A stretch of 10,618 nucleotides of DNA, from positions 1-10,618 of the forward strand of contig CANJSR010000144.1 in NCBI GenBank assembly GCA_947476855.1, written 5' to 3'. This DNA is from Acetobacteraceae bacterium. GTDB taxonomy: Bacteria; Pseudomonadota; Alphaproteobacteria; Acetobacterales; Acetobacteraceae. The notes beneath the pieces are model-generated. The model worked only from the letters and a program-made list of their open reading frames with translations. It did not search any database and was not told the DNA's origin. Positions within the stretch are counted from its first letter, which is position 1, and each line of letters begins with the position of its first letter. Position numbers and translations under genes: made by a program. Shown piece after piece: positions 1-10,420 of the stretch.

Positions 1-102
1 GGACATGGGCGCCAGGATGACGGGCGTCTCGATCCGGACGCCGTCACCGAGGTCGATTGGTCCGAGGGCAGTTTGTGTGATTTGCGAACGACAGTTGCCC
101 AT
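1..102 (-). CDS. dusB: tRNA-dihydrouridine synthase, DusB/NifR3 type (N-terminal part)
   Basis: DusB enzymes are FMN-dependent and reduce uridines in tRNA to dihydrouridine using NADPH. Only the first 34 codons are in the window; the rest lies beyond the left edge. Read on the minus strand from ATG at 102-100, the peptide ends in GDGVRIETPVILAPMS. This matches the conserved Dus start, where a short beta strand leads into PV-LAPM-GVTD, the first strand of the FMN-binding TIM barrel. An in-frame TAG lies 15 bases upstream of the ATG codon, so this is the only reasonable start. No clear Shine-Dalgarno sequence is visible. The gene is divergent from ispDF; dusB (nifR3) next to ispDF, often followed by ntrBC, is a familiar alphaproteobacterial arrangement. 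The call rests on a short fragment plus this context; another Dus subfamily is possible. Confidence 0.72.
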   Translation of the reverse strand, partial: MGNCRSQITQTALGPIDLGDGVRIETPVILAPMS

Positions 103-156: not shown

Positions 157-393
157 GAAACGCGGGGCTTTGCCCCGATCCCCACCAGGAGGGCGCTGCC
201 CTCCTGGACCTCCCGGCAAAGGCCGAGCCTTTGCAATCCGTTCTTTGGGGGGAAGGAGGGGCCAACACGGACCTTGATTCGGCACGGTCGGCCCCTCCTT
301 CCCCCCAACGAATTGGTTCCAAGGGCTGTGCCCTTGGCGGGGATCAAAGGGGCGGCGCCCCTTTGCGGGGTCCGGGGCAGCGCCCCGCGCTTC
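157..393. repeat. Composite palindromic element of seven hairpins
   Basis: This non-coding element is a large imperfect inverted repeat whose halves mirror each other around a central hairpin (arms 245-263 and 290-308). On each side lie three short hairpins: 163-177, 185-207 and 216-234 on the left; 319-337, 345-365 and 373-387 on the right. All six have stems of 6-10 bp and exactly 3-base loops closed by a C-G pair. The right half, reverse complemented, aligns with the left half almost end to end, including linkers such as GATCCCC/GGACCCC. Differences between halves are often matched on the other side of the same stem, so pairing is kept. I see no transposase and no obvious target-site duplication. 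GC-rich REP-like intergenic repeats of this flavour are familiar in alphaproteobacterial genomes; that this is a dispersed family here is inference. Short reading frames across it look like repeat translations, not genes. Confidence 0.85.
245..308. repeat. Central 19-bp perfect inverted repeat
   Basis: The arms 245-263 and 290-308 are perfectly complementary over 19 bp, with a purine-rich left arm (TTGGGGGGAAGGAGGGGCC) and a 26-base spacer at 264-289. This is the symmetry centre of the larger element. It is the only one of its seven hairpins with a long loop, and the only one with a strong purine/pyrimidine strand bias. No poly-T run follows on either strand, so it is not a canonical intrinsic terminator. 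Confidence 0.85.
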
Positions 394-433
394 CCGATTG
401 ACGCCGGTCCCGCCGCTCGGCATGGGTGCTAGC

Positions 434-1564
434 ATGCGAATCGCGGCCATTCTTGTCGCCGCCGGATCGGGCAGCCGGTTCGGGGCGGACATTCCCAAGC
501 AGTTCCTGACCCTCGCGGGGCAGCCGGTCATCCGGCACGCCGCGATTCGGCTGGCCGAACACGCCCCGTTCCTCCAGCCGGTGGGGGAGGAGGAGCCGAT
601 CGAGGCCGCGCTGGCCGGCCTGCCGCACCTGCCGGTCGTGCCGGGTGGGGCGACACGCCAGGACAGCGTGCGGGCGGGGTTGGAGGCGTTGGAGCCGTTC
701 GCGCCCGATATCGTGCTGGTGCATGACGCCGCGCGCCCGTTCTTTCCTGCGCGGACGATTCCTGACCTGACCGAGGCACTGAAGACCCATCCGGGCGCGA
801 TTCCGGCCGCCCCCGTGGCGGATACGTTGAAGCGCGTGGCGGCCGGGGTCATCACCGACACAGTGTCCCGCGACGGGCTGTTCCGCGCGCAGACGCCGCA
901 GGCCTTCCGGTTTCCGGTGCTGCTGGCCGCGCATCGGTCGGGACTGGTCGGGGCGACCGACGATGCCTCCTTGCTGGAAGCGGCGGGGGAGCGTGTGGCG
1001 ATCGTTCCTGGCTCGGACGACAACATCAAGCTGACCTACCCCGAGGACCTGCCTCGGTTGGAGCGTGCCATGGCGCCTGTGATGATCCCCCGCGTCGGCA
1101 CGGGCTTTGACGTGCATGTCCTGACCGAGGGGCGGCCGTTGTTCCTGTGCGGCGTCCAGGTGCCGCACGACAAGGGCCTGGCCGGTCATTCGGACGCGGA
1201 TGTGGGTATCCATGCCTTGTGCGACGCGATCTACGGCGCGCTGGCCGAGGGCGATATCGGCCGCCATTTTCCACCCTCCGAGGCGACGTGGAAGGACGCC
1301 GACAGCGCCCGCTTCCTGCGCCACGCCGCGGAACGGATCGCGGCGCGCGGCGGGCGGCTGGCCAATGTGGATGTCACCCTGATCTGTGAGCGGCCGAAAA
1401 TTGCCCCCCACGCCGCGGCGATGATGGAACGGCTCGCGGACCTGATGGGGGTGGCGGTGGACCAGGTCTCGGTGAAGGCCACGACGACCGAGAGACTGGG
1501 CTTCACCGGACGGGGTGAGGGGATTGCCGCGCAGGCGGTCGCCACGGTGCTGCTGCCGGGCTGA
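434..1564 (+). CDS. ispDF: Bifunctional IspD/IspF (MEP pathway)
   Basis: This fused cytosolic enzyme carries two steps of the non-mevalonate isoprenoid pathway. IspD joins CTP and MEP to give CDP-ME, and IspF cyclises CDP-ME 2-phosphate to MEcPP. From ATG 434 the product is 376 aa. The IspD domain spans about residues 1-215, with the nucleotide loop AAGSGSRFG (R15), PKQ (K22), [26 protein letters not shown] and ATDDASL. The IspF domain spans about 218-376, with metal ligands in DVH (D226, H228) and H252 of GHSDADVG, then [27 protein letters not shown]. Length and order match alphaproteobacterial IspDF. ATG 434 ([11 protein letters not shown]) fits the family best; ATG 422 adds four residues, and a TTG at 398 is unlikely. 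No strong Shine-Dalgarno precedes either ATG. The hairpin element ends only about 40 bp upstream. Confidence 0.97.
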
Positions 1565-10061: not shown

Positions 10062-10355
10062 TCAAAGCATCATCGCCTCGGCCCGGACCCTCGCCCCGAT
10101 ATGAGGTTTCAACGCCGCCGCCGCGACCAGGTCGACGCGCAGCCCGGTGATCGCGGCCAGCCGCTCTTCCAGGGCAAGAAATGACGACAATGGAATGGGA
10201 CGCGCGAACTCGACCAGCACATCAAGGTCGCTGTCAGGCGTGGCATCATCCCGCGTGCGCGAGCCGAACAGGGCCAGCGACCGGATGGGCCATTCTTCTC
10301 GAAGGGCCGGCAGAGCCGAACGCAGCAGCGCGGGGATGTCGCGGGTATCCAGCAT
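10062..10355 (-). CDS. Small MNT-type nucleotidyltransferase domain protein
   Basis: The 97-aa product is a minimal nucleotidyltransferase (MNT) domain of the polymerase-beta fold. SLALFGSRTRDDATPDSDLDVLVEF (26-50) carries the G-S motif (G31, S32) and the D-x-D metal pair (D43, D45). D75 in RVDLV is the likely third acidic residue, and KPHIGARVRAEA near the end fits the family. Such proteins are often MntA antitoxins that AMPylate a HEPN toxin (HepT) encoded next door. No HEPN gene is visible: the flanks are rsmA (convergent) and a 138-bp gap. The start chosen is ATG at 10355-10353 (MLDTRDIPALL); an open frame continuing upstream to 10505 would add 50 residues unlike the family. Codon choice looks slightly less GC3-biased than its neighbours, a hint of separate origin. 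Toxin-antitoxin function is inference. Confidence 0.82.
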   Translation of the reverse strand: MLDTRDIPALLRSALPALREEWPIRSLALFGSRTRDDATPDSDLDVLVEFARPIPLSSFLALEERLAAITGLRVDLVAAAALKPHIGARVRAEAMML

Positions 10356-10420
10356 GGGGATGCGCCGATCAGGATGGGAGCCAATAACATGGTTTAGGGG
10401 CACATGGGCAGGGTCAGCCA

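Follow-up and report, generated by a model that had tools for sequence, protein, structure and literature searches.

A near-palindromic element between dusB and ispDF

The window, a 10,618-nucleotide stretch of DNA from an Acetobacteraceae bacterium, contains at one end two divergent genes, ispDF and the 5' end of a gene that we take to be dusB, as it was named in the first-pass annotation, with a Dus-like start (APMSGVTDLPFRRTAK). Much of the gap separating their starts is occupied by an element organized as a long central hairpin with three hairpins to its left and their mirrored counterparts to its right (Table 1). The left half (157-263) matches the reverse complement of the right half (290-393) at 82 of 107 positions with an alignment score of 54, compared with a mean of 0.7 and a maximum of 16.5 for 500 mock half-pairs from elsewhere in the window. 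Folded as single-stranded DNA, the region 150-400 reaches -97.6 kcal/mol against a mean of -58.28 (sd 3.48) for shuffled versions (z -11.3), and 0 of 200 shuffles fold as stably. The mirror-symmetric seven-hairpin organization described in the first-pass annotation is therefore real and far beyond chance, and the stem pair at 185-207 and 345-365 differs as it stated; the extent given, 157-393, does contain the element, although the boundaries of the core are better set as in Table 1. The inner apex of the central hairpin, of the GGCC-ACACGGAC type, is better conserved than its outer stem.

Table 1. Features of the dusB-ispDF region of the window
Feature	Positions	Strand	Basis or remark
dusB 5' end	1..102	-	start codon at 100-102; near-identical to the element-adjoining gene in G254 (L336)
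Seven-hairpin element core, near-palindrome	162..388	no strand	fold, half alignment, homologous copies
Outer left hairpin, hp1L	163..177		
Left hairpin 2, hp2L	185..207		
Left hairpin 3, hp3L	216..234		
Central long hairpin	245..308		outer stem variable among copies yet self-complementary
Right hairpin 3, hp3R	319..337		
Right hairpin 2, hp2R	345..365		
Outer right hairpin, hp1R	373..387		
Likely -35 box of ispDF, TTGACG	398..403	+	directly adjoins the element; sequence
ispDF	434..1564	+	IspD and IspF domains (PF01128, PF02542)

The TTGACG motif at 398 is probably the -35 box of ispDF, and similar boxes are seen by eye 5' of ispDF in many relatives. There are no matches to Rfam families in the window at gathering score, and membership in an Rfam RNA family was rejected on this basis; plasmid relatives of the element were not found at E<=1e-5. 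Elsewhere in the window, positions 10062-10391 of the minus strand code for a small nucleotidyltransferase-domain protein (PF01909), of the kind common in MNT/HEPN pairs.

A dispersed intergenic repeat family

The element is a member of a multi-copy, non-coding repeat family, as had been proposed from the window alone. Relatives were found via ispDF, and the genomes behind 30 of 80 ispDF loci were searched for the element, of which 22 have a match at E<=1e-3. Broader searches give matches at E<=1e-8 in 42 of 200 genomes sampled from the G005 family, at E<=1e-10 in 16 of 33 from the G001 genus, and at E<=1e-5 in 20 of 38 from the G020 genus (titled Acidocella), with the qualifications that weak matches may represent single hairpins and that match numbers exceed copy numbers because matches of a near-palindrome are counted on both strands. 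A total of 143 copies were placed across the searched genomes, with about 30 near-full copies in G001, and 30 of the 44 sequences at hand were aligned, solely for viewing conservation. Ten stretches from further genomes were added, six of which are clear copies by symmetry scan and four of which (L445-L448) are not. Because contigs commonly end in or at the element (L123, L131, L132, L134, L135, L288, L330, L344, and L416), the copy counts for these draft assemblies are probably minimum values.

A five-hairpin form of about 180 bp, with two hairpins on each side of the center, is present in G005, G009, G010, and the genus of G020. Copies at unrelated loci can be very similar (L146/L150 and L151, 88-90% alike), which shows, on sequence comparison, that the repeat spreads to new loci. 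Thirty of 36 copies have a called gene on each side, 10 of them between divergent, 16 between tandem, and 4 between convergent genes, with no terminator-like orientation bias among these 30, although the ORF caller is crude and some called ORFs extend into the element. One of the sequences, L001, comes from a metagenome-assembled genome (MAG) titled Nitrosovibrio sp., but its ispDF/dusB region and repeats are those of Acetobacteraceae and it is probably mislabeled.

Pairing is kept while stem sequence varies

The central hairpin is predicted by folding in all 130 copies (130/130) that remain after 13 of the 143 were left out of this count. The outer 22 nt of the two central arms share an identity of 0.894 within five-hairpin copies (n=51) and 0.925 within seven-hairpin copies (n=79), but only 0.61-0.63 between copies. 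The stem sequence is thus nearly free whereas its self-complementarity is not, in keeping with the earlier suggestion that pairing is maintained as the sequence changes.

In-place inversion between orthologous copies

The window locus has a counterpart in G254, which matches it at 706 of 755 positions on the ispDF side and 147 of 162 on the dusB side, the latter with mismatches in the non-coding part. The G254 contig on the ispDF side begins at the element center, and its half-element corresponds to the dusB-side half of the window (81/86) rather than the ispDF-side half (62/88); the G254 half on the dusB side corresponds to the ispDF-side half of the window (103/114) rather than the dusB-side half (88/114). 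Aside from the other side of G254 itself, the next best half among those compared scores 60, versus 78. Both sides of G254 carry the opposite half of the window element, and the element is therefore inverted between the window organism and G254. The dusB contig (L336, G254:C116) crosses the element into a tRNA gene and not into ispDF, which means that either a rearrangement at the element or a join made in assembly also plays a part. In G001 and G273, dusB is still next to ispDF and the gap between them lacks the element.

Flank matching identified 11 orthologous loci, at which 19 pairs were compared, and together with the window locus and L441/L444 there are 13. The flipped alignment is better at eight of these and the direct alignment at four, with one undecided; the set L246/L261/L268 is counted as flipped for one of its three pairs. 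The evidence is strong at four of the eight flipped loci. L153 and L240 share 0.93 identity flipped but 0.80 direct, exceeding the maximum of 0.92 among 481 non-orthologous pairs, and L265/L266 (0.88 flipped) is at the 99th percentile of such pairs. L441, located on a 3.6-Mb contig, matches L444 at 199 of 236 element positions flipped and 169 of 236 direct, with flanks matching at 389/440 and 399/440; these are the sole orthologs compared among the further-genome copies, and the baseline of non-orthologous pairs does not extend to that group. L297 and L314 differ by a nested exchange: the two hp3 hairpins have traded places exactly and the two hp2 hairpins almost so, whereas the center and hp1L retain their orientation; hp1R of L314 is partly deleted.

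The identities of L256/L262 (0.85) and L260/L263 (0.83) are not above those of unrelated copies, and since these pairs and L246/L261 are only as alike as unrelated copies, the element may have been replaced in them, or inserted independently into one site. L246, L261, and L268 occupy the same insertion site in three species; their flanks are 0.91-0.94 alike but the elements only 0.73-0.77, and the element there may have been replaced, re-inserted, or converted.

Mirror-image flanks

Outside the outermost hairpins, the flanks on the two sides of a copy are more alike, as reverse complements of each other, than they are like the flanks of other copies (126 copies). The median own-flank score is 26.5 against 8.0 for 408 cross pairs in the five-hairpin class (n=51, p 3e-26) and 13.0 against 5.5 for 600 cross pairs in the seven-hairpin class (n=75, p 2e-16), although these p-values, like those for the central arms, are too small because orthologous copies were counted apart. 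The excess is gone by about 50-60 nt. The controls are other copies of the same genome, or of the same class if the genome had fewer than three others, and the set leaves out ten copies (those with wrong boundaries, contig-edge partials, L241, which duplicates L153, and the misaligned L257) and seven with less than 100 nt of flank (L119, L123, L134, L135, L288, L292, and L330). A hand-bounded earlier set of 31 copies gives the same flank picture.

Own-flank scores exceed the 95th percentile of the controls in 40 of 51 five-hairpin and 34 of 75 seven-hairpin copies and do not in the other 11 and 41, respectively; many seven-hairpin copies therefore show no flank mirroring. For the window copy, the anchored score past the outermost hairpins (12.0) is below the 95th percentile (13.5) of the G001 cross-copy control. 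The largest five-hairpin control score, 86, surpasses every own-flank score and comes from the sister-species orthologs L243/L153; when controls are restricted to the same genome (466 pairs, with a highest score of 24.5) and each orthologous set contributes a single copy, the 99th percentile is exceeded by 28 of 39 five-hairpin copies. Site patterns in orthologous flank arms are concerted at 11, crossed at 5, and orthologous at 41 sites over 20 nt (p 0.11), and at 6, 3, and 138 over 45 nt (p 0.25), giving no clear or significant sign of ongoing homogenization.

Flank mirroring is clearest at L285 (99 nt, score 63.5) and at the L122 copy beside pyrE (88 nt, score 63.5), and even these best arms have several mismatches. 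At 9 of 13 loci from relatives, the neighbors of L122, which we take to be a dehydrogenase-like gene and pyrE, are adjacent and divergent, their start codons 58-84 nt apart (the 13 are from 14 non-G001 pyrE loci, with L392 left out). Over the same 45 nt, the palindromy of the site itself is 5-12 in the nine empty-site relatives and 33 in G001, and a pre-existing palindromic target at L122 was rejected because the empty sites are non-palindromic. Past its ribosome-binding site, the left gene has a leader that repeats the pyrE-side leader in inverted orientation, and comparison with these outgroups shows that one gene's leader has been duplicated in inverted form across the element.

L285 lies between presumed mltB and quinone-oxidoreductase genes. 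On visual comparison, the leader of mltB is similar to its counterparts in five relatives, whereas the leader of the quinone-oxidoreductase gene is unlike its counterparts in four relatives and repeats the mltB leader in inverted orientation, strongly suggesting that the flank was copied outward. In relatives matching both genes, these are on separate contigs or are 12 and 52 kb apart (G002 and G007); G001 has the mltB/quinone-oxidoreductase junction on one side, and its contig stops in the element. L285 (G273:C57) and L344 (G001:C232) thus join across the element genes that are apart in relatives, a gene-order breakpoint. At the eno locus (L151/L152), both arms may be ancestral. Three further species (L211-L213) have remnants there, down to one hairpin of the outer ends, and one more distant species with the same gene pair has no element, both as judged by eye.

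Y1 transposases, sequence tags, and target duplications

The first-pass annotation had raised possible mobilization by a RAYT transposase, whose gene might be flanked by the same hairpins, and the searches support neither. The mobilizer search covered Y1 transposases (PF01797), which are absent from all ten repeat-bearing genomes of a first set and above cut-off in 3 of 16 of a second (G231, G253, and G274, with G257 below cut-off). The two sets share four genomes, such that 19 of 22 distinct carriers lack an above-cut-off gene, although several of these carriers are MAGs and may be incomplete; in the search control, a signal was obtained in 5 and 6 of 14 genomes. The Y1 genes at L340 (G231) and L341 (G253) are weak and RAYT-like, and that at L339 (G274) is strong and IS200-like. 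No Y1 locus has a BLAST match longer than 21 nt to any of 16 reference elements, and with so few Y1 genes in the carriers, mobilization of this type was rejected. Palindromes unrelated to the element are visible by eye near the Y1 genes, such as GGTGCAATGCC...GGCATTGCACC on both sides in L340.

The window copy contains none of GTAG, CTAC, CGTC, or GACG on either strand of 157-393. Direct target duplications are not clear, with shared edge 5-mers in 4 of 136 copies against 86 of 2,000 control pairs, and in 4 of 128 against 34 of 2,000 when ten copies with doubtful boundaries are removed.

Interpretation and alternatives

On balance, this is probably a dispersed, non-coding, non-autonomous intergenic repeat, in and near the Acetobacteraceae, that is reshaped by template switching between its arms. 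In a near-palindrome of five or seven hairpins, sequence would pass from one arm to the other when the template is switched, or through some other inter-arm strand exchange, as DNA is replicated or repaired. If the switch is made from arm to arm, the interior would flip in place, as in the inverted orthologs; a switch continuing outward would copy the flank of one neighbor, inverted, to the other side; and one within a stem would keep self-complementarity while the sequence drifts, a mechanism proposed here for stems that are themselves observed. A deletion between the first and last hairpins would leave a one-hairpin scar, as at the eno locus. Template switching could therefore account together for the free stem sequence, the inversions, the mirrored flanks, and the scars, and a change of template at these points during DNA copying is the probable reason that copies tend to sit between mirror-image neighboring DNA. 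The suggestion in the first-pass annotation that the family is recombination-driven fits the in-place inversion and inverted flank duplication. Template switching by itself does not explain copies at new loci, and we infer that these arise by repair-type copying rather than through a RAYT. Template switching is described as homogenizing inverted-repeat arms and inverting spacers (PMC8604942) and as creating and maintaining hairpins (PMC8794818). It is possible, though doubtful, that the palindrome goes further and, without a transposase of its own, folds to capture, invert, and copy DNA at forks or breaks, leaving an inverted and not a direct duplication of the insertion site, rewiring promoters such that divergent genes receive the same leader, and joining distant genes.

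A MITE-like transposon, moved in trans by a DDE or other transposase and later decayed, with flips reflecting independent insertions either way, is an unlikely alternative to template switching. It would account for the movement of copies such as L146/L150 and L151, and for L246/L261/L268, where elements less alike than their flanks look as if re-inserted, but there is no clear direct target duplication, and L297/L314 swap hp2 and hp3 while keeping the center, which insertion does not do. Inverted flank duplication is not known to be a product of DDE transposases, which also counts against a MITE. In-place inversion at several orthologous loci is what an inverton flipped by a site-specific recombinase would produce; a fixed conserved inversion site is not evident, however, with outer stems and flank arms varying by copy, and the nested L297/L314 exchange requires more than one breakpoint pair, making an inverton very improbable. 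It is somewhat easier to envisage, if still quite improbable, that the hairpins are a selected RNA or DNA structure (a two-way terminator, an insulator, an mRNA 3' stabilizer, or a gyrase or nucleoid-protein site) in which compensatory changes keep pairing. They are very stable and intergenic, and pairing is kept, but neighboring genes show no terminator-like orientation bias, relatives in which the two genes still lie side by side lack the element in that gap, and Rfam gives no match.

Two further readings are given hardly any weight. A RAYT/REP or BIME family, in which a Y1 transposase (TnpA-REP) recognizes and mobilizes the hairpins, would be intergenic, multi-copy, and palindromic, with inverted pairs like the REP dimers described in PMC3733652, and three carriers do have above-cut-off Y1 genes; nonetheless, most carriers, including G001, have none, and the Y1 loci lack a copy of the element and adjoin other palindromes (by eye). 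Insertion into already palindromic sites, with mirrored flanks older than the element, has a precedent in REP dimers reported within palindromes in some species (the same source), and the possibly ancestral eno arms would agree with it, but the nine empty L122 sites do not. An artifact of assembly, with contigs often ending inside the element (L344, L416, and others), may still play some part in draft genomes; it was rejected because a turn-back at a palindrome would give identical arms, whereas the arms differ and lie between different genes, and because one inversion involves a 3.6-Mb contig.

Relationship to known systems

Where pairing is conserved in repeats, the usual interpretation is selection on RNA or recognition by a transposase; here, pairing, in-place flipping, and mirrored flanks could share a single mutational origin, a reading that can be tested on the dozens of natural copies that have orthologs in related species. 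In plant chloroplast DNA, hairpin-associated minute inversions flip the segment between inverted repeats across related species, whereas the element is bacterial and dispersed and shows a nested exchange of several hairpins. MITEs are likewise small, non-coding, and dispersed with inverted ends, but the element has no clear direct target duplication and has inverted flank duplication instead.

REP, BIME, and REPIN sequences, of the GTAG- and CGTC-tagged superfamilies, are similarly intergenic, multi-copy palindromes, often in inverted pairs with structured spacers (PMC3733652). The element differs in having five or seven hairpins and a length of 180-240 bp, in lacking a GTAG/CGTC tag in the window copy and a RAYT in most carriers searched, and in its in-place flipping and mirrored flanks. 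Template switching at quasipalindromes in bacteria and yeast shares with it spacer inversion, the creation of perfect stems, and, on the side of the element probably, arm homogenization (PMC8604942 and PMC8794818), although the quasipalindrome events, as described there, are single and occur at unrelated inverted repeats, whereas the element is a dispersed family with flank copying over tens of nucleotides. The family is apparently a variant of intergenic palindromic repeats without a RAYT, marked by in-place inversion and inverted flank duplication, and no prior description of it was recognized in the titles and abstract beginnings of the literature searched.

Flank copying would pass the leader or promoter of one gene to its neighbor, a route of regulatory change that is not usually counted, and at least one copy is at a gene-order breakpoint. 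The spread and persistence of palindromic repeats in the absence of a RAYT also become directly testable. In other Acetobacteraceae (L012 and L024), a different, A/T-rich inverted hairpin pair of the AAAAAGAAGCAAAA type is located 5' of ispDF.
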